Part shown: positions 3,001 through 56,951 of the stretch, piece after piece
Layout of the letters: each line of letters starts with the position of its first letter
How positions within the stretch are numbered: position 1 is the stretch's first letter
NCBI GenBank assembly: GCA_030063045.1
Contig: JAQSEB010000205.1
Coordinates: 124,001-188,000 of the forward strand
Length of the DNA stretch: 64,000 nucleotides
Direction of reading: 5' to 3'
Source of the DNA: Pratylenchus scribneri
Lineage: Eukaryota > Nematoda > Chromadorea > Rhabditida > Pratylenchidae
Made by a program: the position numbers and the translations under genes
The notes under the pieces: generated by a model
Seen by the model: only the letters and a program-made list of their open reading frames with translations
The model's database searches: none
Told to the model about the DNA's origin: nothing

Positions 3001-3927
3001 ATTAAGGACTACTATGTGAGTATAGTAGGATGAATAGAAAGGGCCCTCAAGCATTCTTGGCACTGACAATTCTTTCCAGTGAAATTTTGCTAAAAAATAT
3101 AAAATATTTTCTCTTAAATTGGAGAATTTGATTAAAATATTTGTCCCCAATATTTAATATTGAAGTTGCGCTTTCACTTTTGACCTGATGGATCCGCGGA
3201 AGAGACATGAACCACCATAGGATCGCCACCAAAACATTCGCTTAGATTATCCTCGGCCAAGACCACACCAACATAGACTGCATAATGCTGAAAATTTTGG
3301 GTTAATTTGAATTACCCATTCATCTTAAAATTCACTTCCATACTCAGAAAACAGAGATATAGATTGAATAAAATGAAATTTCTATTTTTATTATCTAATG
3401 AATAAGTATTAGGAGTGGAATTACAATATTTCCTCTATTAGAAGACCACCCTCTAATAGAACCCACTCTCGGCTTTCAGGTACTGTATCTCTTGACGTGA
3501 TGAACTTTTTGAAAAAATTTATTATATTTTTTAGTGCCGTTTGACTCTATAAAAAGCTATATTTTGTCAAAAACGTTGACAGAAAACAGAATTAGACTGC
3601 AAAATTTTCCCATTTTTGTGCTTCGAAACTTATAAGCCCATGGGCTTCTAATAGAGGATATTATGTTTATTCTAAATCTGTAAAATTTTGATTCTTTTCC
3701 TATATTCAATGGTAATTTTATTTGATTATCAAGGTCCATGATAAACGTTCGAATTAGGAAAAAATCATATAAACTCTCGAAGTAAACCCATTTGAATATA
3801 TATAGAATCAGAATTCGGAACCAACATTGTGGCCTAGACGAGAAATTTTCAGCAGATCGCCGACTTTCAAATTATGTTGCTGAGCAATTTGATGACTTTG
3901 GCTTTCATTGAGGATGGACAAGGACAT
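1..3927 (-). CDS. LRAT-domain (NlpC/P60-like) acyltransferase/phospholipase, 3' end off window
   Basis: Seven exons on the minus strand: 3826-3927, 3185-3287, 2444-2499, 2235-2387, 712-861, 554-641 and 75 to beyond base 1. All phases agree. The start ATG is at 3927. The protein has the two LRAT signatures: a GDLLKISR strand followed by HYAVYVG, whose first His is the expected catalytic residue, and YVSNCEHFARWC, whose Cys is the expected nucleophile. Hydrophobic, Gly/Ala-rich sequence follows in the last two exons (SRIGLSIAFGSFAGI; VTLAALGSAVIPPLGIGLG), as in LRAT/PLAAT proteins that end in a membrane segment. Known family members move or release fatty acyl chains on phospholipids or retinol; the substrate here cannot be told. 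If exon 6 is not spliced at 553, it reads to a stop at 525-527. Introns 3-4 carry repeat elements. Confidence 0.82.
1264..1891. mobile_element. Foldback element with ~110-base inverted arms
   Basis: The left arm (about 1264-1375) and right arm (about 1785-1891) are near-perfect reverse complements. They share the blocks TACGTGGTAT, GATCTGATCAGGGTGAGTGA and ACTGAGTCGATCTAGGGGTGG. The centre (1615-1720) is GC-rich and is itself palindromic around GCGAGCGCAGCGAGCCAAGCGCTCG. No transposase is visible, so this is a non-autonomous foldback or MITE-like element. It lies in an intron of the LRAT gene. The ORFs at 1347-1844 are products of the arms. Just outside, 1916-1975 is a small hairpin of TAGGGTTAGGG against CCCTAACCCTAA. 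Confidence 0.8.
2596..2753. mobile_element. Short GC-rich inverted-repeat element with 3-base target duplication
   Basis: The ends are AGAGTTGGAAACC and GGTTTCCAACTCT, flanked by ACT on both sides (2593-2595 and 2754-2756). The inside is rich in CCCCGGGGA-type sequence, unlike the AT-rich intron around it. Length is 158 bases with no ORF. It lies in intron 2 of the LRAT gene. The class is not certain. Confidence 0.7.
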
Positions 3928-25749: not shown

Positions 25750-28700
25750 TCACAGACGTCCAATCCAATATTCGTTGACGGCCAATTCCACTTTCTTGTC
25801 GGTTGCCTCCATTTCCGCCAATTTTTTGTCCAGCTCACGGCCATTGCTGTTCACCAATTCGGCCAGTTCCCGCTGTCGTTGGTCAATGAGGTGGAAGAGG
25901 CCACGCGAGAATGGGTTCATCGAGATCATCGGGGCATAGCGGTTGTAGATGTTGGACAGCTGTTTCAGAAATTCGGCCTCTGCCTCAATCAAATTGTCCA
26001 TTCGGTCCTTGGCCCGTGCTGATTCAGTCTATTAAATTGAAAATTAATTTTTTTTATTCGTGGAGAATTTGGAAGCGAAATTTAAACTTACCCTATAAAT
26101 TTGAAAATTTTACGACCAAAATCGAAGTGGGACCTTTAATTTTCCCTAGATTTAGGCCACTGGTTCGAATTCTCTCAAAAGGAAAATTATGTATTTTTTC
26201 GGGTAAATTTTTTGAAATTTTAGCACAAAAAATTTTAACTTTTTACTAAATTTTATCTAGAAAATTAAAAAATCTTAGCTCGGAGGTATCCTTTCCGTTT
26301 TCCAAAATTTAGGTCTGTCGGAAATTGAAAAGATGTGGATTTATGGGGCTTTATTGTGGAATTTAGTAGAAATTGATTTTCCCCTTTTAATTTATTTTCA
26401 ATATCAATTAGGGGCAAAAATCCGCGATTATATGATTAATCCGCGTTTTCTGGTTATCCACGTTTTCCACGATTTCAACTCCTTGAAGATATGTCGGCCA
26501 AGCGCTTGACTCGATGGTGAACAAACAACAAATTAAGGACTTGGGATTTAGGGCAAATGAGGAGGGAAATTTTGGAGGAATGCGAAGCGAAATAATAAGT
26601 GAATAAAACCTAAGAGGACAAACTCAGAAAGCCCCGAAATTAATTAATTTAAATTCGAGAAAAAGAATATTATTCGCCAATCGCCAGAAAAATATATGCA
26701 AGCAGAAATTATTGTAGGATCGGTAAAATCGTCGGTTGGAAAAAGTTGGAAAACTGTTGGAAAAAGTTGGAATACTGTTGGAAAAAGTTGGAATGAAATC
26801 GTCTTTTAGCTTCTTCTTCTCCGCAAGCAGGCCAAAGGAATATGATGATTAAGCATTTTGTAGAGAATATTTTTGGGCGTTTTGAAGAGAATAGCTTTAG
26901 GGCGATTTGGCGAAAAGAAGATTGTCGGAGTTCCGACAAAGTCGGGGGGCCGAGAAACACAGCCGCATAACTGCTGCATCAGAGGCGCCCGAGATTGAGA
27001 AGTGCATCGGGGTTGGCCAATGTCAATCCATTAGATGAGATAGGATTGATAAGCTGCTGTTGTTATTTGTTGCAGCATTGCAGCGAGTTCTCGATTTAGT
27101 GTTGTTTTTCTCGAGACGGTGGCAAAAATTGGAGGCTGTTGTATTGGCCAAGTTTGCTGATTTGATTTGCCAACTGATGGCAACTGCGCCTCTGACCCAC
27201 CCTTCCTTGCCAGAACATTGCTTTTGTTGTTCATCGTTGTTTTCATTAAATGTTGTTTTTGTTGCGTTGACACATCAGAAAGCGTTTAAAAGTCGTTTTT
27301 GGCGGTTATTGTTGTTGGTAGCAAAAATGTTGTTGCAATTACGTTAATTTTGGAAGTGAAGAGCATCTAGGATAGGCAAGTAGGCAAAGTCAACCATTGG
27401 GCCTTAGGGCATTTTTGGTCATTGAGGCAAGCAAACTAAAGGCATTTGAGAAACTGAAATTGACTAAATTTGGGAAAAAATTAAAGAATCCGCGTTGAAC
27501 GGCTGAGTCGAATTAGTTTCAGCGAAATTTTCTAAAATTTAGCCGTTACCGACTGTTCAATTTTGTTGCGCGAATTTGGGGGGAGCCCTCCTCCATAGAG
27601 CTTAAAAGTTGCCTCGGATGGGCAACCATCGGCGGAGGATAAAAGCAGACAAATTGCTTATTTTATCTATTATTATAAGATAAAAATGCGAAAAATTAAG
27701 TTGTTAAATAATCCAAGATAAGAATTAATCCGATTATAATGAGTATAAAATTTTTTCATAATAAAGTTCAATAAACTTTTATGCAATCTGTTTCAAATCC
27801 ACTCATAAATATTTGAATAATTCATTTTGAAGAATAGCTTGAAGGTAAATTTGACCTTCTAGCCAAAAGGAAGGGGAAATTTTTCCTCTATCCGGTGGCA
27901 ATCGGGGCGATATAAATCGCGCAAAAGGTGGCGATATAATGAGAGAACAAATCAAATATTTCCTTGTAATAATGCGCCCCATTTTTAGAGCTTGAGATAT
28001 CCAAAATTTATTCCGAATTTTCATTTTCATCCCACGGATATTTAAATTTGTTTGATTTAATTTAATTGGCAAAATTTCAGCCAATTTTTTCGAATTATTT
28101 CCTCGATAAAATGTTCCAAAAAGTTTTCCGAGAGAATTTAATTTATTTAGCGTAATTAAATTTTCGCCAATTTTATTTATTTTTGGAACTTTAAAATTTT
28201 CCAAGTCCGCATTTATCTCCTTATCAATTGAAGGAGTCATAGAGGTGGCAATGGCTTCTAAGGCCGCCAAATTATAATTCCCTTGGAAAATTAATTCAAT
28301 TGGCTTATGCCCACAAACACAAATATTAGGTCCAACAAACGTATAAATGTTGAAAATAAAAGGCGAATTTTCTTCAACGCTTTGGAAGAATTGCCCAAAT
28401 TTTCCAATATAAATAATCCATTCTAATTTACTGTCGGACATTTCAAATTTGTTAATTGTTTTGTGATTCCAACTCCAATTTTGTCCATAAACTATCATCT
28501 CTTCCATATTGAGTTGATAGAGCAGAATTTCAATATTAATAGCCATTTTATTTAATGGCGCATGCACATCCAACGATTTCTCGCATAATTTTCGATCCAT
28601 TTTTATGAAGGGTATTTGATTATATAATTCAAAATCACCCAAAGTGGATACTTTGGCCTCCGGCGCATGCGGAAGAACTTTATTTTCAGTAACCACCAAT

Positions 28701-31700
28701 TTACCATTGTCATTCCTGACGTCATATCCAGATACCATAGACATAATATTGTCCAGTATATGCACTGGCGGGATTCGCGTAATGTCCGCAGACATTCCAA
28801 GAGTATGCCAAAGGGCAAAAAAATTAAGCGGATCCTCTTTTAATTTCTGTATCTGGAAGGGTGCCGATTTTATTGCCCCAAGATCCTCTCTATGCAAAGA
28901 ATCCTGTGCCTTATTTATTTGAATTTGCCTTAGGGTTTCCTGAGGCTTATCAATTATATTATAATTTTGCTGATTATCTCCATTCGTTGCCTTATTGGCA
29001 TTATTATTATTAACAGCAAAATCTTTATAATGAGTATTCCTCTCATGGGAATGCTCTAAATATTCGGCACGCTTTATTTCTATATCCACAAGAATTTGCT
29101 TGCATTCTTCAATATATTCGGCAAAATGCACATCATCCATTTTAAAATTATCATAAATATAATTTTCCGCATTTAATGCTTCTCCATCTAATGTATTGAT
29201 GCATTTTTGCCATTCATCGTGAGCATTATCCAAGTGACTTACTGTCCTATTTAACCGGAATTGCTCATGGCGAAGTTTATTTAGTGTGTCCTCTATTTTA
29301 TTGGGAATATCATCCAATAAAATTCTAGCAATTTTCATTCGCTCCTTCAAATATTTTATTGCTGGTCCAATTGTACTACGAATTTTCCCAGATCTCGACA
29401 TATTGAATTTAATTTATCCCTCGAATATATATTTTATTTTCCCAAATAAAATATCGAAATAATCCAAGTCCAAAAGTACGATTTATTTTTGTCTTCCGAC
29501 AAGCACAAAATTTTTTTCAAAGAGAAAAAAAAAAGTTGATTCACCAAAAAATAAATATTCTTGGCCCAAAAATGGAATGGAATGAAAAAGATCTTTCAAC
29601 AAAAATCTTTTCTCAATCCACGACAATAGCAAGTTCGAATAGTTTGTAGCGGCACCACTTGTCGGAAATTGAAAAGATGTGGATTTATGGGGCTTTATTG
29701 TGGAATTTAGTAGAAATTGATTTTCCCCTTTTAATTTATTTTCAATATCAATTAGGGGCAAAAATCCGCGATTATATGATTAATCCGCGTTTTCTGGTTA
29801 TCCACGTTTTCCACGATTTCAACTCCTTGAAGATATGTCGGCCAAGCGCTTGACTCGATGGTGAACAAACAACAAATTAAGGACTTGGGATTTAGGGCAA
29901 ATGAGGAGGGAAATTTTGGAGGAATGCGAAGCGAAATAATAAGTGAATAAAACCTAAGAGGACAAACTCAGAAAGCCCCGAAATTAATTAATTTAAATTC
30001 GAGAAAAAGAATATTATTCGCCAATCGCCAGAAAAATATATGCAAGCAGAAATTATTGTAGGATCGGTAAAATCGTCGGTTGGAAAAAGTTGGAAAACTG
30101 TTGGAAAAAGTTGGAATACTGTTGGAAAAAGTTGGAATGAAATCGTCTTTTAGCTTCTTCTTCTCCGCAAGCAGGCCAAAGGAATATGATGATTAAGCAT
30201 TTTGTAGAGAATATTTTTGGGCGTTTTGAAGAGAATAGCTTTAGGGCGATTTGGCGAAAAGAAGATTGTCGGAGTTCCGACAGGTCTCGGGTTCGAATCC
30301 GCTCAATGGTAAATAATTTTTTTTGGGTTTAATTTCAATTTTTATGCTGTTTTATAAATTCTATAGTACATTTCTAGAGGAAATACAGTAATTCGAACCC
30401 CAAAAATATTATAACAAACATTTTGAACTATCCCATTAGTCCAATAATTAATTTAATTCCTTAAAAACCCACCTTTCGTGCGCGTCGCTCCTCGTTCAAT
30501 GTTTTACGGTTTCGTTCATTGATTTTCTCGTTTTTGCCCATTTGTGCCTCCATCCAATCGATGTTGTTTTGAACAAAGGCCAAAATGTTGCGCATTTCAT
30601 TCTTTAGTGCCGCCTCGCCCAAAAGACGTTGCGGGGTCCAATGGTCGAAGGCGCGATTCTCGGGGCGCAAATGACGGACATGGGCCACCGGTTGGCCATG
30701 GTACCAATCGTTGGGGACTTGTTCAACAATGAAGGCGTCGAATGTTTGCTGAAATTGCAAAAAAATAAGGAATGGAAATAATTAAATAAAATTGTTGGAT
30801 GATTTTTCGGATTTAATTATTTATTATGTAAATTAACAAAAATAATTTTAAAAAAGGGGAAATAATGGAAATTATTGGAGGATTTTTTGTGATTTTTAAA
30901 TTCTTTCCAATTTTCTTTATAAAATATTGTTTAAAATTTAATAAATTTTTTATTATAAATAAATTTTTAAAAACCAGTTTTGAAAAAGTGAATATAATGA
31001 AAATTATTGGATGATTTTTTGAAAAAAAATGAAAATATTAATTGAAAATTATCGGATGATTTTTTTGGGATTTTTTATTTTTTATTTCTTTTTCTTCCCA
31101 TTTTTCTTTAAAAAATATTATATAAAATTGAACTATTTTATTTTAATATAAATTAAATAAAAATAATTTTTTTCTATTTTTAAAAATATTTAAAAATTCC
31201 ATAATTTTGAATTATTATAAAATTAATTTAAAATCCTATTTAAAAATATTAAAAATATATTCCACCTTCCAATTTGCCATATTCTCCTTGATTCGGGGTG
31301 CCAAAAATCGATGAGCATTCCAATTGAGGGTGAGCAGCCAGCGCTGGTCAGCAAGCGACAATTTGGCCAAAATGGGACGAATCAATTCCGCCGGGATCGG
31401 TTTTCGCTGAATGGTCTTCTTTTCATCCTTAATTTATTTAATTTTTGGATATTTTATTGGAAAATTTTTTCAACTCTTTTTTCGTTTTTTGGCATCGAAA
31501 AGAATCCTACAAGCCTTAATATAAACATAAATCTAACTAAAAAACATGGCTCAAAATTTGTTATTATTTTTCGAATTTTTTGATAAATTAATTCATTTTT
31601 TTTCTGTAATTATTCAATTTATAAAATGACGAAAAAACTATAGTGGCAAGTGGTTTAATGGTAAATGGTTTATTAATTATTATAGAACCTCAACCATATA

Positions 31701-34700
31701 CCCAATCGATAGATCTCATCAAGACGCATCGTTTGATAATGATTTGGCTTAGGTTTAACAAATTTTAAATTAGTTTTGAACCAAAAACCTTGAGATGGTT
31801 TTAACGGTTTAATACCCTTAATTATGATCAAACCATGACAAATTACAGGCCCGTACCCAGGGGGTCGGCCCGGGCCGACCCCAAGCCACGCGAAGCACCA
31901 AAAAAAAGTAAAGGGGGGGAACCCTTTTGTTTTACGATTTTCATAAAAATTCAGTAAAATTTTTCGCTGCGCGGCAATTTTTGACCAAAATTTTTCGCGC
32001 GCCATCCCCAACAGCAATTCCTGGGTACCGGGCCTGACAAATTATATACCAATCTAAGAGTCTTGACGAGATCTATCGATTGGGTGTATGGTTTAGGGTC
32101 TAGGATAAACCAGTGAACCATTTTAAGCTTTTCGTCATTTTTCAACATTACATTTCTTCGATCAATTTATTTAAATATTCCTTGATGAGTAAATTTTTTT
32201 ATTTCTTTTTTCAATTCTCCTTAAAAACTCACTTTCGATGTGCCCTGTTGTTGCTGCTGCTGTGGTCCCATTGGCCCATTCATTGGCCCCAGTCCCATGG
32301 CGATGCGTTTTCGCTCGATTTGCCAAACGTTGAAGTCAATGTCCATTCGAATGCCGAAAGTGCGTCGCCGCATACGGTAATCATTGATAGCCGGCCGTTG
32401 GAACTAAAAATTTGTGTTGCAAAATTACTAAAAATTAATTTTTTATGATAAAAAATTTTAAAAAACCGCGAAATAATTAAAAATTAATATTTTTTTTTCA
32501 TGACAAAATTTTAAAAAATTTTTAAAAATTTCAAAAAATTTTAAAATAAATCACCGGTCCAATAAATGGTGGATTTGGACCAAAACATGGTGGATTTGGT
32601 CTCATCATAAATGGATGTGTACCAAAAAATGGTGGATTTGGCCCCATACTACCACCCATAAATGGATATGGTGGTGGATTTTCATTTCGTTTTTCTTGAT
32701 TCATTTTTATATTAACTCTTTTTAGTACATTTTCATCAGGAAGATCAAATTCACGTCGAATTTCGGCCTTCTCATCGTCGCTCATGTCCTGAAAAAAATG
32801 AAAAGTTAATCAATACAAAGTAATTAAGATTTAATGTTTTTTCGGTCTATCACAATACAAAAAAAATATTTATTGTAAATTAGCTAACTCGGGAATTAGC
32901 CAGATGTTTGGCTTACTAATTTTGAAAATCTCGGTTAACTAGGAAACCCAGAGAGTTGAGAAAATAGGCTCACTCGATTCAGCAGTCTATAATTTCAATT
33001 TCAGACCTAACTAAAGGATTAATCAAATTCTAGTAAGCCAAAACAGGTTTGGGTTTAAATAACGGTTCAGCTTTTCAAAAATAAGGTCATACCGTTTAAA
33101 AGACTAAATTAATCATGTAGAATCTCGAAAGAGTTTATATTCGATTCTATAAGACCGGAAACCGTGATTTTCAAATTTACAACATGTTATTATTTATTAT
33201 CATCCCTAGAGAAGAGATAGAGGCTAAAGCCTTCTAAAACAGTTAAACTTAACCCTAAATTTTCCTTAATTGACCCATTTTTTAAAACTCACATCACAAA
33301 GGCAAAGAATGTCGCGAACATCCTCCAGCTTCCTTTGCCGTATCACATGAAGAGCACATTCTTGGACGCCTTCAAAATAAAATTATAATTTCGTAATAAT
33401 AAAAAAATGAATGCTTACAATAATGGTAGAGCGACTTGAGGTCAAGGAAATTGGCGGCCGAATACAATTCCTTCACATCTTCCAAGTCCATTGCCATTAT
33501 TCCACAGCCAAACCCGTAGTTGACTTCCCATTGGTCCGGTTGGAACCAGATTTGCTGGAAAATTATTTTTGAATAATTTATTTGGTGTTTTTTTTATAAT
33601 GAAGATTTTTCCAAAAAATTTTTGATGGAGTTGAATTTTTCAAATTGGGATCGACTTAAAAATGAGGTCAAATGAATGAACCAGGGGTGTTTTTATACTC
33701 CTTGATCATTGGATCACTGTGAGATATTACCAAAAACTATTTTTGGGGTTGTGGTTTTGGGGACCGCTTTAAATTTGAGGTGTGTCAAAAATGAAAACTG
33801 CGTCAGATGATTGAATCAGGGGTGCTTATATAGTCCGAGATCACTGGATCACTGTGAGATATTATTATTTTTGGCTTTTGGGGGTTGTGGTTTTGGGGGA
33901 CCACTTCCATCTTCATATCGGATTCGACTCAAAAATGAGGTCAAGTGAATGAATCGAGGGTGCTTTTATACTCCGGGATCACTGGATCACTGTAAGATAT
34001 TATTTAAATTAAAGCCTTTCTAAACTCTAATAGCAGTGGTCCAGGTTTTACCAAAAAAAAATTTTTTGGGTTGAATTTAAATTTTTGGGTACCGCTTTAG
34101 ATTTTGGTCGACTCAAAAATAAGATCAAATGAATGAATCAAGGGTCCCTTTATACTCTGGCGGGATCACTCTAATAACAGTGATCCAAAAAGGAAAAAAG
34201 CCTTTCATTTTGGCAGCAAAATTTAGGTCACATATTCGAATCCGATCCGTAGAAATTTTTTTGGGCCTAATTCCCATTTCCCACTTTTACGCAATATTCA
34301 CTATTCTACAGAACATTACTAACCGAAATGCAATGCTCAAAAAACCAGTCGCGAGTGCTACTTTTGCCAGCAGGACTTGAAGAGAAGAGGAAGTCTTTAT
34401 GAATTCTTCTTCGTCCTCAAACCTCAACTAATTTAATCTCACATACTAGGCTTTTTGGTTTGGGAGCCAATAGCCAAATTCTATTATCTTAAGGTTGAGT
34501 CAACTCTTATATTTATATCTTAAGGTTTTTTTTTGAGGTCAGTCCAATTCCTATAATCTTAAGGTCTAGCGTCTTATTGGGAATGAATTCTTCTCTCAAA
34601 TTCCATTAATTTTCTATTTCCCTTGTTCAGAAACCTGTCCAGTCTCTTGTCCCAATTTGAATTCAAATTCTGGTTGTCCATGTTTGTGTCGCATCCAGTT

Positions 34701-35256
34701 CACAACACGAAGCAGGCATTTGGCGGTAATGGTTGGTAAATTGAAAACGAACGGCGAATCCGCCTCATCTTTGGCATCCTTGTTTTTCTCCTTGACCGCA
34801 ACCTTCTCTTCTTGGCCCAAATTGGTCCACATTTCAGCGAAAATTTGCGACTGCATCATCAGGCACCACGGGACCTGAAGAAATTGCAAATTTTATCAAA
34901 TTCATTGATTTTAAACCTCAATGTTCTTGCCATCCATTGTAAGGCATTTGACTTTTCGCTTCAGTTGGGCCTCGGTGAATTTGGTGTTCTCAACTGAAAA
35001 AAAATGTCAATTTATAATCGGTCAAACATTAAAATTAACCTTTCCCGTCACCATTTTCCAACACCAATGGCAAAGATTCGATGGCATTTTTGTCTTCCGA
35101 AACTGCTGGTGGAACATTTCGACTTTTCTTGTTGCTTTCATTCTTTGTTGGCTGTGGCTGCTTTTCCTCAACAATTCGTCGCTTCACCGCCGCTTTCTCT
35201 TTCTTCGGTGCATTTGCAACTTCTCGTTTGGTGGTTGTTCTACTTCGTAGTTGCAT
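25750..35256 (-). CDS. Skp1-like protein with long C-terminal extension (proline-rich, F-box-like, helical)
   Basis: Ten exons: 35040-35256, 34917-34993, 34635-34874, 33419-33554, 33293-33369, 32555-32788, 32233-32403, 31266-31427, 30473-30748 and 25750-26028, 622 residues, every junction in phase. Residues 1-75 are basic. About 80-285 align with Skp1: KVKCLTMDGKNIEV, PTITAKCLLRVVNWMRHKH, MAMDLEDVKELYSAANFLDL, QRKLEDVRDIL, MSDDEKAEIRREFDLPDE; a charged insert separates the first strands. A P/M/G-rich linker follows (GPNPPFFG), then FGIRMDIDFNVWQIERKR, a Q6 run, and PIPAELIRPILAKLSLADQRWL, which resembles an F-box. The rest is helical and unrecognised. Skp1 joins CUL1 to F-box proteins in SCF ligases. 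Exons 7-10 could instead be a second gene; only phase argues for one. Intron 9 contains a retrotransposon. Confidence 0.72.
26316..26938 (-). repeat. 3' LTR
   Basis: 623 bases with TGTCGGAA/TTCCGACA ends. Inside is a short array of GTTGGAAAAAGTTGGAA units (26736-26794). Identical by eye to the other LTR. ORFs in it are incidental. Confidence 0.9.
27803..29401 (-). CDS. Gag-like protein of the LTR element
   Basis: A single 532-codon ORF. Its first ~150 residues (RSTIGPAIKYLKERM..., then a charged helical stretch with LNRTVSHLDNAHDEWQ and GEALNAENYIYDNF) have the layout I associate with the N-terminal Gag region of nematode BEL/Pao elements. From about residue 180 on, the protein no longer looks like Gag. 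It has QIPFIKMDRKLCEKSLDV, VYGQNWSWNHKT and VGPNICVCGHKPIELIFQG, with no zinc knuckle, aspartic protease or reverse transcriptase motif. It may be a deletion fusion of gag with a distal part of a longer parent element. The class assignment rests on recollection of family pattern, not a search. Confidence 0.6.
   Translation of the reverse strand: MSRSGKIRSTIGPAIKYLKERMKIARILLDDIPNKIEDTLNKLRHEQFRLNRTVSHLDNAHDEWQKCINTLDGEALNAENYIYDNFKMDDVHFAEYIEECKQILVDIEIKRAEYLEHSHERNTHYKDFAVNNNNANKATNGDNQQNYNIIDKPQETLRQIQINKAQDSLHREDLGAIKSAPFQIQKLKEDPLNFFALWHTLGMSADITRIPPVHILDNIMSMVSGYDVRNDNGKLVVTENKVLPHAPEAKVSTLGDFELYNQIPFIKMDRKLCEKSLDVHAPLNKMAINIEILLYQLNMEEMIVYGQNWSWNHKTINKFEMSDSKLEWIIYIGKFGQFFQSVEENSPFIFNIYTFVGPNICVCGHKPIELIFQGNYNLAALEAIATSMTPSIDKEINADLENFKVPKINKIGENLITLNKLNSLGKLFGTFYRGNNSKKLAEILPIKLNQTNLNIRGMKMKIRNKFWISQALKMGRIITRKYLICSLIISPPFARFISPRLPPDRGKISPSFWLEGQIYLQAILQNELFKYL
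29649..29657 (-). promoter_or_regulatory. Candidate primer-binding site of the LTR element
   Basis: Directly inside the 5' LTR on the minus strand, after a two-base spacer, is TGGTGCCGC. TGG pairs with the CCA end of a tRNA, as expected for reverse-transcription priming. The matching tRNA was not identified. Confidence 0.55.
29660..30282 (-). repeat. 5' LTR
   Basis: 623 bases, same ends and same internal array as the copy at 26316-26938. It contains the promoter for the element by analogy with other LTRs; no TATA box was assigned. Confidence 0.9.
30283..30400. repeat. B-box repeat interrupted by the LTR element
   Basis: GGTCTCGGGTTCGAATCCGCTCA follows the LTR. The matching left part (AAAATTTAGGTC) lies at 26304-26315. 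Together they rebuild the uninterrupted copy seen at 56562-56592, so the retrotransposon landed inside a pre-existing member of the B-box repeat family. Confidence 0.75.
31620..32145. mobile_element. Inverted-repeat element copy (AACGGTTCAATGG family) with nested hAT-like insert
   Basis: Left end AAAATGACGAAAAAACTATAG, AACCATATACCCAATCGATAG. Right end GATCTATCGATTGGGTGTATGG, GATAAACCAGTGAACC, CTTTTCGTCATTTTTC. It is interrupted at 31846-32036. Located in intron 7 of the Skp1-like gene. Confidence 0.75.
31846..32036. mobile_element. Nested hAT-like element with 8-base target duplication
   Basis: Ends CAGGCCCGTACCCAGG and CCTGGGTACCGGGCCTG are inverted. ACAAATTA is duplicated exactly on both sides (31838-31845 and 32037-32044). 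It is 191 bases. The inside has TCGGCCCGGGCCGA and TTTTTCGCTGCGCGGCAATTTTTG. The host element must be older than this insert. Confidence 0.87.
32918..33182. mobile_element. Foldback element (TTTGGAAATCTCGG family)
   Basis: The left arm has AATTTTGAAAATCTCGGTTAAC and the right arm ACCGTGATTTTCAAATTTAC. Inside are ACTCGATTCAGCAGT and ACGGTTCAGCTTTTCAAAA. It is related to 49559-49877. Located in intron 5 of the Skp1-like gene. Confidence 0.55.
33640..34190. repeat. Four diverged tandem units in an intron
   Basis: GAATGAATCAGGGGTG, TTTATACTCC and GGGATCACTGGATCACTGTGAGATATT recur near 33675, 33810, 33940 and 34130. Unit length is about 130-190 bases and each unit is rich in TTTTGGGG. The unit reads as ordinary repeat DNA with no ORF. 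Located in intron 3 of the Skp1-like gene. Confidence 0.65.
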
Positions 35257-40469: not shown

Positions 40470-41773
40470 ATGGCCGAAAACAAGGACGAACTCGTGCAGC
40501 GTGCCAAACTTGCCGAACAGGTGAGGGAGAGGGTAAAGAATTAACCAAGGGTATTCTCATTTAAAAACCATGACAACCAAACAATAATATTGGACGGGGG
40601 AAAAAGTTAAGGTCTGGGTGGAATAGTTAAGGTCTAGGGACCTTCCTTATTAAATGTTGAAAATTTACAAAACATTTTTAAGGCCGAACGCTACGATGAC
40701 ATGGCTCAATCCATGAAGAAGGTTACCGAACTTGGCGCCGAGCTGTCCAATGAGGAACGCAACTTGCTCTCCGTTGCCTACAAAAACGTGGTCGGGGCCC
40801 GTCGCTCATCATGGCGTGTCATCTCCAGCATCGAGCAAAAGACCGAGGGTTCGGAGAAGAAGCAACAAATGGCCAAGGAATACCGCGAGAAGGTCGAGCG
40901 GGAATTGCGCGATATTTGCCACGATGTTTTGGTAGGGAAAATTTTCAATGGAAACTTTAAATTTATGCAAAAAATCTTCAGGACTTGTTGGACAAATATC
41001 TGATCCCGAAGGCTGGCAACCCCGAGTCAAAGGTGTTCTACCTGAAGATGAAGGGTGACTACTACCGCTACTTGGCCGAGGTCGCCACCGGAGATGACCG
41101 CACCAGTAAGTTTTTGGCCAACATTTCCATTTTCCACCGATAAATCTTTTCCATTTAGGCGTTGTTGAGAAGTCCCAGCAAAGCTATCAAGAGGCATTCG
41201 ACATTGCCAAGGACAAAATGCAGCCAACTCATCCGATCCGCCTTGGCCTGGCCCTCAACTTCTCCGTGTTCTACTATGAGATTTTGAACTCGCCGGACAA
41301 GGCTTGCCAATTGGCTAAGCAGGTTTCTGACTTTTGATAAATGGGATAAACTTAGGGCATTTCTTTCAAAATGCTCATCTGGAAATGTACTTTAGAATGT
41401 TTTAAAATGCATAAAAGGTCGAAAACAGTTCTGAAAAAAATAACGTCCTTAGCGGGTTCGAACCTGAGACCTAAATTTGCGGAAAGTTAAGGTCCTAGTC
41501 CTCCTTCATTTGGGTTGGCGAAAATTTTCAAAACTTTATTTTTGGTACATTATTCTTAATAAAACCCTAAAAACGAATAAAAAATAATTCAATTTTTCTT
41601 CCCAGGCCTTCGATGATGCAATTGCCGAATTGGACACTCTCAACGAGGACTCCTACAAGGATTCGACGCTGATCATGCAGCTGCTTCGGGACAATCTGAC
41701 ATTGTGGACCAGCGATACGGCAGCGGATGAGCAAGAAGGCGGCGGTGAGACCGGCGAGACTGGCGGAAACTGA
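40470..41773 (+). CDS. ftt-2: 14-3-3 protein
   Basis: Five exons: 40470-40520, 40683-40931, 40982-41105, 41159-41322 and 41606-41773, 251 residues, phases consistent. Hallmarks: [26 protein letters not shown] (signature 1 region), the phosphopeptide-binding K/R/R/Y set in KNVVGARR and YYRYLAE, and the C-terminal [19 protein letters not shown] (signature 2). The variable acidic tail ends [12 protein letters not shown]. 14-3-3 dimers bind phosphoserine/threonine motifs of client proteins in cytoplasm and nucleus. Wording is closest to the epsilon/zeta-like nematode proteins. Intron 4 carries a B-box repeat. Confidence 0.97.
41395..41560. repeat. B-box repeat copy in 14-3-3 intron 4
   Basis: AATAACGTCCTTAGCGGGTTCGAACCTGAGACCTAAATTTGCGG followed by GGCGAAAATTTTCAAAAC, as in the copies at 9775-10125 and 46850-46990. 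Confidence 0.6.
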
Positions 41774-49243: not shown

Positions 49244-50988
49244 TCATTTTTGTAATACAATTTCGCGCATTCCCCAATAATAAAAGAGAAGAAATGCTCC
49301 GAATATCAAAACAGTTAATAAGGCAACATATATTCCGGCCATAATTTCACAGCATTTTCCCCAATTAGTTGGAGAATATATCGATCTTATGTAGGGGCCT
49401 TGCAGATTTTTCCTGTTCTTTTCCGAAATATGCGAGAAATCGCCGGCAAATTTCATTTTGATTTGACCATCGGCAAGCACAAATTTACTGACCGTTGCCT
49501 GAAAATACATAAAAATGTACATATATTACAGAAAATGTTGGAAATTGCTAGACGCTGGTTTGATAAATTTTGGAAATCTCGGCTACTAGATACCGTGACC
49601 GTGCCGTACCCGAGAATAGGTTCATTCGATTCAGTATGGCCGATTTAGTTTATGAAATTTTAATCTCAAAAGGGTTTGAACTTGTTTTGAAAAGTTGAAC
49701 CGCCGTTGTTTAAACTCACCAAACCGATTTTGGTTTACTAATACCAACTCTCGCCTATGACTTAATACTGGCTTGAAATTGAAATTTTGATAGAATAAAT
49801 CTACTAAGCCAAGTCGAATGAGCCAATTTTCGTACCTGAACGATGCCTAGAAACCGAAATTTCCAAAATTTATCAGACCAATGTCTCCTAAATATTATTG
49901 AAATGCGCTTACTACGTCGATGAAAATTTCTTGATTAGCCAAAAGTAGGTGAATTGCTGCAAGCGTTGAGCTGTGAGCAACGAACACAAATGTCTCTTAA
50001 ATGTTTATGAAATATAAGTAAAAAGTGAAGTATTTAATTTGGCAAAAAACCATTGAAAATGGCGAGAAAATAATAGTGTGTTTTAATGGTTTGTCCTAGA
50101 TCCGTAAACCTTATATTCGATCGATACTTTCATTAAGACGCACGTTTGATAATGATTTGGCTTAGGTTTAACCAATTTTAAGCCAGTTTTAAACCAAAAC
50201 CCCCAAAGATGGTTTAAACGGTTTAAAACCCTTTAATTTCTGACCAAACTACGACAAATTATATACCAATCGACGTCGCGATGAGATCTATTGATTCTCG
50301 ATTGGGTATAAGATTTATGGTTCTAGGAAAAAAATTTGAACCGCTATAATCTTTTCGCATTTACAATATTTCCCTAATAATGTTTTATAAAAAAAACTCA
50401 CTGGCATCCCTGTATCGATCATCACAAATGATTTTCATAAACGTCCCAATGGCTTGTTTTTTCCACCATTCTTTGCGTCGTTCCCAATGAAATGGTCTCT
50501 GATGAACTGATTCGTAGGTGACATCAGTCAATGGAAATCGCCGTTTCAGTGTGACGGGATCCTGATAACCGGGTGGATCCACCATAAGAGGCTTAAAGAA
50601 AGGAATAAATTGTGTAAAAATTAATATTAAATAAATTACTTCGAGAAGACCCTTTTCCGGTTTGATCGGAATTTTTCGTTTGCCAACAAGAATTGAAGCG
50701 GTTTCCATTGTTCTTTCGAATGGCGATGCGAAGATGTGATCAATTTTGACGGTTGAAAATCTGGCAAAATTTGTTTACGGATTAGAATTTACAAATTTCT
50801 TTTAATTTTCTGGGTTACCTTTTGGCCAATTCTTCCGCTTGAGCTCGACCCCTCGCTGAGAGCGGAGTATTGTCACGTTTTAGTCCATTCGGATTTGCAC
50901 TTTTCAGCCATTGTGGATTGATTGTATCCTCTCGTTCTGCATGCCTCACCAACCAAATTGTTCGGATATTTGTGCTGTTGCTTGCCAT
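49244..50988 (-). CDS. Histidine phosphatase (phosphoglycerate-mutase fold) with C-terminal membrane anchor
   Basis: Five exons: 50819-50988, 50640-50760, 50402-50591, 49913-49995 and 49244-49498, 272 residues, phases consistent. The first catalytic motif is RHAER near the N-terminus (IWLVRHAEREDT); the second arginine is in ASPFERTMETA; the second catalytic His is in TFVFVAHSSTLAA, supplied by the small exon 4, which is easy to miss. The layout resembles the UBASH3/ecdysteroid-phosphatase branch. A C-terminal hydrophobic helix (AGIYVALLTVLIFGAFLLFYY) and a short basic tail suggest a tail-anchored or single-pass protein, which is not usual in that branch. Substrate unknown. Introns 3 and 4 hold repeat elements. 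Confidence 0.82.
49559..49877. mobile_element. Foldback element (TTTGGAAATCTCGG family)
   Basis: Inverted ends TTTGATAAATTTTGGAAATC and ATTTCCAAAATTTATCAGA. Inside are ATTCGATTCAGTATGG, GTTTGAACTTGTTTTGAAAA and its partial complement. Located in intron 4 of the phosphatase. Related to 32918-33182. Confidence 0.65.
50050..50370. mobile_element. Inverted-repeat element copy (AACGGTTCAATGG family)
   Basis: Starts near ATGGCGAGAAAATAATAG and ends GAACCGCTATAATCTTTTCGC. Contains GGCTTAGGTTTAACCAATTTT, GGTTTAAACGGTTTAAAACCC and CAAATTATATACCAATCGACG in order. Located in intron 3 of the phosphatase. Confidence 0.72.
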
Positions 50989-54310: not shown

Positions 54311-56951
54311 ATGCAATTAATTGATGATGACAAAGAAATGGATGAGACCGAATTGCGTGCCCGAATAAATGATGGCCATTTCATTGAACAGCTTCATTCC
54401 CAACTGATTCTGGGCATTGAGAATTCCGAAAATCGATTCAAAATTCATCAGGTTTTAACCCAATTTTATTAAATTTCTCAACAATTTCAAATTTAAAGTT
54501 CACTCGGGCAGCCATGATGCTTCCCAATTTCAATGAATTCCAACGGCTCAGACCACTGATTGATGGATTGATCGAAGATGGAGTGAATACAAAGGATTTC
54601 CTCGGATGTGCGGCTGCATTGGAAATTTTAGCAGAGGTTTAATTAAATTTAATAAAATTGGGTTCTTTCCTGTTTTTGGGGAGACAAAATGATTATCGGG
54701 GAGGGTGTGGGAGCAAGACGTAAGACGAAGAAGAAGCTGAGAGGAGGATGATGAAGAGAATGATGAAGAAGAAGATGATGAAGAGAATGATGAAGAAGAA
54801 GATGATGAAGAGAATGATGAAGAAGAAGATGACGAATAGAATGATGAAGAAGAAGATGACGAATAGAATGATGAAGAAAAAGATGATGAAGATGATGATG
54901 CTGGAGATTAAGATGAGGAAGATGATGGTGAAGAGAATGATGGTGAAGATGATGATGAGGAGAATGATGGTGAAGATGATAATGAAGAGAATGATGATGA
55001 AGATGATGAGGAAAATGATGATAAAGATGATGAGGAAAATGATGAATTACCTCATCTTCTTCATCGCCGTGCTCCCCCTCCCCCGATAACAGGAAATTAC
55101 AAAATTTAATTGCAAATTTTAGATTGCCTCTTCCGGTCGGCGAAATATTGAATATTTTGAGCAAATTGGATTGCTCACAAAAATCTATGAACTTTTCAAA
55201 TACACAAAATCCAATCCGGACCTTGGCCATCCATACATTGGTTTTTCTCATTTTTAATAATTTAATTTTAATAATTTTTCAGCCTGCATTCGCTTTTTTA
55301 GCTATTTGAGCACGGCAGATCCAAATTCACTGACAAAATTTCCACTTTTCACTGCCGATGTTTTCGATGCGGTCAATCGATTCGATGCATTCGATCCGGT
55401 TCGACGGAAGCTGGCGTTCGAGACATTTGCAATAATCACAACGAACAGCGGTGCAAAACAATTCCTCGCAAGCGAGCAATGTAAGCAATTTTAATAAATT
55501 TGAAAATTTTGGTTTGATTGGACCAGAGAACGGAGCTCAAGATTTTTGAATCATTCAGCCATCGCCTCTGTGGTTTCCAATAATTTTGAACGAAAATATT
55601 CAAATAAAACCTGTGTTTTAGCTAAGAAAGCAATGGCCAAAAAACCTTGAATTTTGGTTATATAATTAATTAGTCAAATAACCTTGAGTTATGGATTATG
55701 GTTATTCAAGTAATTGGTCCAAAAAACCTTAAATTTTTGCGTATTCGAGCAATGGTCCAAAAACCTTGAGTTTTGGTTATTCAGGTAATTGGTCCAAAAA
55801 CCTTAAGTTTTAGCTATTCGAGTAGTGGTACAAAAAAACATTGGTTATTTAATGCTCAAAAAACCTTGAGTTTTGTTTATTCAAAAACTTGAATCGACAA
55901 ATATTGATTAAAAAATCTTCAGGTCCACACAATATGGCCAAGGCGATGAACCATTTGGGTGCGGCGGTGGCCACTGGTGGTGGAATGCCGGAGTTGAAGG
56001 CTGCCTATTTGGACGCAATTTACGCAATTTTCAATTCATTCGACCCAAAAAATTCCCCGCTGGAATCGTCCACAATTCTCCAAAACTGGTTCAACGAGTT
56101 GGGTGGCCCATTCCCTCAACTTCTCTTCCAATGCTTGAAAATGCCATTCGACGCTGTGCAAATTGCCGCTTTGCACGTTTTGCTCGCCTTGACCAAACAT
56201 GAATGGGGACCGGCCAAATTTCTGCAAATTGACGGGTTTGCTTTTGTGTATTTCTGGAACTTATGCAATTTACATTTACAAAAATTTGAAACTTTTTGAA
56301 AATTTCAAATTTTAACAAAATTTTTTACAAAATTTTTCACAATTTTGCTTTGTAAATTTATGGAATTTTTATGCAATTTACATCATCGCAAAAAATCGGA
56401 AATTTTTCGGTTTTTTTTCCAAAATTCTTCAAAATTTTTTTTAAAAAATTATTAATTTTTTTAAAATTTATGCAAAAATCCTTAGCTCATCTAGACGTGT
56501 TGGATTAAGCTATGAATCAAAATTGCACATTTTTTGACCAAAGAGTTGGAATTTTTTGCAAAATTTAGGTCTCGGGTTCGAATCCGCTCATAGGAAGTTA
56601 TTTTTTTCCAAAATGTTTCCCCACGTTTATCAATTTCTATATTTTCTAAAGTACATTTCTACACGAAAAATAAAATATTTTAAATAAAAAAATTGCTAAA
56701 TTCCAAATTTTCATCATTATAAATTTTAATAAAAATTCCTCAAAAATAGGTTCATCGATTTCATCCTCAACCGTGAGCGGTCATTCTCTGTAGTTGGCCT
56801 CCAACTGAAACATGATTTTGTGTGCAAATTGTTGGAATCCTCTTCCAAACAAATTGATGCCGAAACCCTGGAAAAACTTCGGGAATATGCCGCCCGAGGA
56901 CCATATGCTCCCCCGGAGAAGGTGGATGTTGCAACGGAAGAAATTCAATAA
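54311..56951 (+). CDS. PSMD5: 26S proteasome non-ATPase subunit 5 (PSMD5/S5b) assembly chaperone
   Basis: Six exons: 54311-54451, 54499-54636, 55123-55240, 55283-55480, 55923-56235 and 56750-56951, 369 residues (human about 500, so shorter), phases consistent. The protein is all-helical ARM/HEAT-like. Family-like stretches are RFFSYLSTADP, DAVNRFDAFDPVRRKLAFETFAII, KAAYLDAIYAIF, and a C-terminus with LREYAARGPYAPPEKVDVATEE, matching the PSMD5 end (LRE-x-x-x-x-GPY...A-x-E). PSMD5 binds the base ATPase PSMC2 during 19S assembly. The whole protein looks truncated at the N-terminus compared with human. Introns 2, 4 and 5 hold repeats. Confidence 0.82.
54665..55097. mobile_element. Foldback element with GATGAAGAAGAAGATGATGAAGAGA array
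   Basis: Inverted ends TTTCCTGTT...GGGGAG and CTCCCC...AACAGGAAA. The core (54740-55050) is GAAGATGATGAAGAGAATGAT repeated, with a short complementary TCATCTTCTTCATC on the right. The long Met/Lys-rich and His/Leu-rich ORFs on both strands are the array. Located in intron 2 of PSMD5. Confidence 0.75.
55560..55900. repeat. AAACCTTGAGTTTTGGTTATTCAAGTAATGGTCC tandem repeats
   Basis: Five to six imperfect units, about 45-55 bases each, in intron 4 of PSMD5. Related to 44215-44640. Confidence 0.65.
56540..56690. repeat. Uninterrupted B-box repeat copy in PSMD5 intron 5
   Basis: AAATTTAGGTCTCGGGTTCG at 56562-56581, then AATCCGCTC and AGGAAGTTATTTTTTTC. It equals the sequence that the LTR element split at 26315/30283, so it serves as an empty-site reference. 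Confidence 0.7.

Follow-up and report, generated by a model that had tools for sequence, protein, structure and literature searches.

A Pratylenchus scribneri gene family that joins a diverged Skp1 domain to a probable F-box in one reading frame

Skp1 is the adaptor of the Skp1–Cul1–F-box (SCF) ubiquitin ligases and is represented in nematodes by the skr genes. In these ligases, Skp1 and the F-box protein are usually separate chains, and the complexes are regarded as exchangeable, with many F-box proteins served by one Skp1 pool. In a 64,000-nucleotide stretch of Pratylenchus scribneri DNA (the window, to which coordinates refer), we identified a minus-strand gene that encodes a Skp1-like N-terminal half, an F-box-like module, and a C-terminal tail in a single chain. 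The fusion gene is real, one gene and not two, and the same order of Skp1-like and F-box-like parts recurs across a gene family. The module is probably an F-box, and the gene is fairly likely to encode an SCF substrate adaptor made as one chain, the tail of which is diverging.

Structure of the fusion gene

The gene runs from 35256 to 25750 in 10 exons separated by introns that are all GT–AG, and its open frame of 622 codons extends from an ATG at 35256 to a stop codon that ends at 25750. The in-phase ten-exon model drawn in an earlier note on this DNA was thereby confirmed, and the segment PIPAELIRPILAKLSLADQRWL, in which that note saw an F-box, lies where it was placed, in exon 8 (31427–31266). 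The features are as follows.

Exon 1, 35040..35256, minus strand: start codon and lysine/arginine-rich N-terminal tail, with a GT donor; start shared with the second copy and two paralogues
Exon 2, 34917..34993, minus strand: first part of the Skp1 POZ domain (Pfam Skp1_POZ, residues 86–124, spans exons 2 and 3; E 3.7e-5)
Exon 3, 34635..34874, minus strand: remainder of the Skp1 POZ domain
Exon 4, 33419..33554, minus strand: Skp1 helix with AANFLD; P0001 (see below) starts inside this exon
Exon 5, 33293..33369, minus strand: first part of the Skp1 dimerisation domain (Pfam Skp1, residues 218–262, E 0.0021, below cutoff); present in P0001
Exon 6, short form, 32729..32788, minus strand: end of the Skp1 domain, DMSDDEKAEIRREFDLPDEN; its donor is used in P0001
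Exon 6, optional extension, 32555..32728, minus strand: proline/methionine-rich linker of 58 codons, open in both copies and absent from P0001
Exon 7, 32233..32403, minus strand: basic stretch and polyglutamine spacer; present in P0001
Exon 8, 31266..31427, minus strand: F-box-like module, PIPAELIRPILAKLSLADQRWLLTLNWNAHRFLA; 16 family places, F-box profile match, three-helix model
Exon 9, 30473..30748, minus strand: start of the C-terminal tail, without a known domain; in P0001; 26–34% identity to four paralogues
Exon 10, 25750..26028, minus strand: helical C-terminal tail and stop; in P0001; 38–44% identity to four paralogues

Protein database searches found no relative other than P0001, the sole one returned from 5.8 billion predicted proteins, which is 365 residues long and comes from one 1213-base contig. 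A search of NCBIfam had a single match (E 0.87). P0001 begins in exon 4, at M200 of the model, and continues through exons 5, 6, 7, 8, 9, and 10 to the stop; from exon 7 onward (window residues 328–622), 291 of the 295 residues are identical. The Skp1 half and the F-box-like half share one reading frame in P0001, and because the genomic introns are absent from it, we infer that it derives from spliced messenger RNA. No sign of a retrocopy was seen, as DNA searches gave no more than two copies each for the exon 8–9 region and exon 10, with the intron included in the match to the former. Because P0001 runs unbroken from exon 4 through exon 10, the junction at 32403/32555 lies inside one gene, and the earlier concern that it might part two genes can be set aside. 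P0001 covers exons 4–10, and exons 1–3 are supported instead by the second copy and by the paralogues. A single-sequence fold of P0001 had a predicted local distance difference test (pLDDT) score of 46, too low to use.

Exon 6 stops at 32729 in P0001 (GAAAAT/GTACTA), so that positions 32728–32555, the 58-codon linker, are skipped. The proline/methionine-rich linker of the earlier model is thus borne out as an open frame in both genomic copies but is left out of this product. It may be an optional isoform piece, because its frame is open in the second copy with three-base indels only, though P0001 skips it. The spacer between the Skp1 part and the F-box-like part is 66 residues, or 124 with the linker. 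The GC content at third codon positions (GC3) is 0.12 in the linker (32555..32728), compared with 0.35–0.65 in the remaining exons.

In the second genomic copy (contig C65, locus L070), the linker and all 10 exons are present, no GT or AG has been lost, and the coding indels relative to the window gene are three-base only. The ratio of nonsynonymous to synonymous substitutions (dN/dS) between the two copies, by Nei–Gojobori count, was 0.0068/0.126 = 0.054 without the linker (0.073 for exons 1–6 and 0.041 for exons 7–10), and by this count both halves, Skp1 and F-box-like, are under strong purifying selection. The linker had a dN/dS of 0.27; such loose evolution with a frame that is yet open would fit an optional coding piece. 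In excerpt, the P. scribneri assembly paper gives 41.4% duplicated BUSCOs and a diploid estimate (PMC10138993).

A diverged Skp1 in the N-terminal half

The Skp1_POZ domain (PF03931) was matched by residues 86–124 with 24.2 bits against a cutoff of 21.9 (E 3.7e-5), and the Skp1 dimerisation domain (PF01466) by residues 218–262 with 18.3 bits against a cutoff of 22.3 (E 0.0021), which is below the cutoff. The best PDB match by phmmer was yeast Skp1 (E 1.8e-7), over residues 127–265, which span the dimerisation domain. Because of these Pfam matches and the match to the yeast structure, we regard the N-terminal half, called Skp1-like in the earlier note, as a diverged Skp1. The canonical Skp1 copies of the genome carry AANYLD or AANFLD, and the window gene keeps AANFLD. 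Ordinary Skp1 is also found in the genome, which has 28 PF01466 matches (12 strong and 16 weaker) and 11 PF03931 matches.

The N-terminus, read from the sequence, is basic and lacks a hydrophobic signal stretch, so that the protein is more likely to be nuclear or cytosolic than secreted. A SKP1-like candidate effector of a cyst nematode, 8H07, is included in a review table seen in excerpt (PMC4802876); nothing ties the window gene to an effector role.

A gene family with the same order of parts

The family searches covered one genome, the P. scribneri assembly (276 contigs, 227,248,964 bases). Searching its DNA with exons 1–5 recovered the two copies and 15 further Skp1-like places, some of them in tandem (C37 and C145). 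The count of 17 Skp1-like loci, drawn from 46 rows of matches, leaves out five short matches (C41, C4, C40, C31, and C33) and a lone exon-1-like match (C145:1080339). When the F-box-like exon of one paralogue was searched against the whole genome, 16 places were found at E ≤ 0.001, and all 16 sit 361–2280 bp downstream of a Skp1-like match on the same strand. Conversely, 16 of the 17 Skp1-like loci have the F-box-like exon, the exception being C37:328890. At the protein level, seven of the 15 further loci were read with tblastn, and all seven showed Skp1-like exons followed by the F-box-like exon. At one other locus, L093, the F-box-like exon (one of the 16) is frameshifted and split across two frames, and this locus is probably a pseudogene.

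Counterparts of exons 9 and 10 were present in four of these seven paralogues, and the sequences of the other three stop approximately 340–650 bases past the F-box-like exon. The spacer between the Skp1 part and the F-box-like part is approximately 13–28 residues in the paralogues, with splice sites judged by eye, and neither exon 7 nor the linker had a convincing tblastn counterpart in the seven, one alignment starting within the final ten residues of exon 7. In one paralogue (L085), a second exon-10-like segment lies at 3314–3481, downstream of that paralogue's own exon 10, and could be a tandem or alternative last exon.

Is exon 8 an F-box?

Exon 8 carries the signature PxELxxxIxxxLSxxD. 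Alone, it ranked third among 597 window frames (≥45 codons) against an F-box profile, and its score was reached by none of 2000 shuffles in one test and by six of 5000 in another. Among 30 F-box loci retrieved (L009–L038), 17 hand-picked ones made up the hidden Markov model of the 2000-shuffle test, and 14 made up an alignment (A2). Aligned with hhalign, a profile of 15 family members against 14 F-boxes of the genome scored 24.3; the best of 400 column shuffles scored 19.3. As negative controls, exons 1, 3, 4, 5, 7, 9, and 10 of the window gene, a set that left out exons 2 and 6, scored 5.2–10.6. When genuine F-boxes were removed singly and compared with the rest, they scored 25.0–60.2. A structure model of the module had three helices, with moderate confidence only (pLDDT 66.7). 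There were two weak PDB matches at E ≤ 10, one of them FBXO31 from a complex with Skp1 (5vzt); a VIA-align comparison covered two chains only, so that the lack of other folds in it carries no weight. The genome as a whole has at least 78 matches to the F-box-like family PF12937 at E ≤ 0.01, with 150 of 236 candidates scored.

Several results weigh against calling the module an F-box. From the window gene alone, the likeness is at about chance level, not clearly beyond it, and by these scores it is significant only once the paralogues are included. The family-profile match spans only 18 columns, corresponding to F-box helix 1, and helices 2 and 3 were not aligned. None of the 15 family members passed the Pfam F-box cutoff; three had sub-threshold matches (best E 0.041), L076 reached 14.0 bits against a cutoff of 20.5, and exon 8 of the window gene had no Pfam F-box match. 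The PDB sequence searches gave no F-box. The F-box call of the earlier note is thus probable rather than proven: a family profile that beats 400 of 400 shuffles over helix 1 and a moderate-confidence three-helix model favour it, and Pfam does not.

These same results would suit a protein of another kind, namely a diverged Skp1 whose C-terminal extension is specific to the lineage and is no F-box. In it, PLPPEL...LSLSD would be some other helical motif resembling F-box helix 1, and the product could act as an ordinary or altered Skp1. The QLQ domain also matches more members about equally weakly; its cutoff was not passed by any of the 15 members (best E 0.04). Where the extent was shown, in four members, however, the QLQ match covered only 10–11 of 35 positions, with 9.2–13.7 bits against a cutoff of 23.8. 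Moreover, the F-box profile score lies far above those of the shuffles and of the seven other exons and close to that of the weakest genuine F-box (24.3 versus 25.0), three helices are modelled for the exon, and at all 16 of its places it follows a Skp1-like match. We consider such an extension unlikely, while taking it seriously, and conclude that exon 8 is probably an F-box.

The tail changes faster than the front

The median identity between the window gene and its paralogues was 71% for exon 4 (seven paralogues), 56% for exon 5, and 56% for exon 8 (13 paralogues), and in four paralogues it was 31% for exon 9 and 41% for exon 10. The tail thus appears to diverge faster than the conserved front, a pattern that would fit target recognition better than it fits a decoy. 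Between paralogues, the median dN/dS was 0.14–0.36 for every exon examined, and positive selection is therefore not claimed. In nematode F-box genes, as stated in the excerpt of a paper citing Thomas 2006, the substrate-binding FTH domain is under selection, in contrast to the purifying selection that acts on the F-box (PMC12062965). The exon 9–10 families showed no convincing known domain, only scattered weak Pfam matches, each confined to one or two members (best E values 0.0018 and 0.00058). A chromo-barrel was considered and rejected: a histone acetyltransferase chain (6if4) was matched by residues 432–500 on their own (E 0.0038) and less well by the longer half (E 0.026), but the exon 9 family profile does not list 6if4 at E ≤ 10.

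A putative self-contained adaptor

The best mechanism, still putative, is a self-contained adaptor, in which a diverged Skp1 N-terminal half, a spacer, a diverged F-box, and a fast-changing tail follow one another in one chain. The F-box-like helices would dock in the groove offered by the Skp1 part of their own chain, that part would bind Cul1 as Skp1 ordinarily does, and the tail encoded by exons 9–10 would hold the target. Provided that other F-box proteins do not take the place of the attached one, each gene would amount to one committed ligase, and duplication with divergence of the tail would yield new targets. It is an evenly balanced proposition that natural single-chain Skp1–F-box adaptors arose in root-lesion nematodes and multiplied there through duplication, partly in tandem, each hard-wiring one Skp1, one F-box, and one target-binding tail and so escaping competition for the shared Skp1 pool, with the window gene adding a linker whose length can be switched by alternative splicing. 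If this is true, a natural fused pair at 16 genomic places would mean that SCF exchange can be given up, and the gene would offer a ready-made single-chain adaptor for structural work and degrader design.

The fused protein could also act as a decoy or inhibitor, either because its own F-box-like part fills the groove or because its Skp1 part cannot join Cul1, and compete with canonical Skp1 or with Cul1. The diverged, sub-cutoff dimerisation domain would suit such a role, as would the other Skp1 places in the genome (28 for PF01466, 12 of them strong, and 11 for PF03931); but the AANFLD helix is conserved, as AANYLD or AANFLD is in the canonical copies, and a diverging tail behind a conserved front is better suited to target recognition, which makes a decoy improbable. 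That two neighbouring genes were misjoined at 32403/32555, or that the model describes a decaying gene, as the doubt in the earlier note, a long intron with a retrotransposon, and the low GC3 of the linker might suggest, is very hard to credit for a junction crossed by P0001, a second copy that conserves all exons and splice sites with a dN/dS of 0.054 outside the linker, and an order kept throughout the family.

Repeats and other genes in the window

Intron 9 contains a long terminal repeat (LTR) retrotransposon (26316–30282) whose terminal repeats are identical across 623 bases and which has a GGTC duplication on either side. At this position the C65 copy retains the empty site, so that the insertion is recent. 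The single long frame of the element (27803–29413, minus strand) matched no Pfam family. A dispersed repeat with more than 40 genome matches adjoins the insertion (30283–30400). Intron 3 contains four diverged copies of a 91-base unit (33639–34186), and the intron between exons 7 and 8 contains 62-base inverted repeat arms (31677–31738 and 32047–32108) that are 82% complementary and could represent a small transposon. Ten window frames were scanned for domains, and three had matches: 40638–41000 to 14-3-3 (E 7.7e-34), 50388–50774 to histidine phosphatase (E 6.4e-7), and 55853–56296 to a non-ATPase subunit of the 26S proteasome (E 2e-10). Scans of the window with Rfam (gathering thresholds) and for tRNAs found none.

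Comparison with known systems

Like Skp1, the window protein has a POZ domain followed by a stretch resembling the dimerisation domain, is matched by solved Skp1 structures over residues 127–265, and has the AAN[YF]LD helix. Unlike Skp1, it has a basic N-terminal tail of approximately 80 residues, a diverged dimerisation domain, and no canonical WCE(E/D) end, and its chain continues into the F-box-like module and the tail. With F-box proteins such as FBXO31 (5vzt), it shares PxELxxxIxxxLSxxD, three helices in a moderate-confidence model, and a faster-diverging C-terminal part; it differs from them in that helices 2 and 3 are not aligned to the profile, Skp1 is built into the chain instead of being a separate partner, and the tail has no recognised substrate domain.

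Among the matches listed in the literature search (titles and abstract openings), no natural Skp1–F-box fusion was found, only an engineered one, and as most subscription journals are outside the coverage, this is weak evidence of absence. The engineered protein is the Skp1–TIR1 fusion of the auxin degron in fission yeast (Kanke et al. 2011, as cited), which, in the excerpts of two papers, raised degradation of the target (PMC10264656, PMC3869809). Skp1–TIR1 differs from the window protein in that it is man-made, its F-box protein is an intact one from plants, its target is known, and, according to the same excerpts, it is toxic at strong expression. Like the window protein, it has Skp1 first, as given by the strain genotype, and the F-box protein second in a single chain, and because this fusion raised degradation in fission yeast, a single-chain arrangement of Skp1 and F-box can function.

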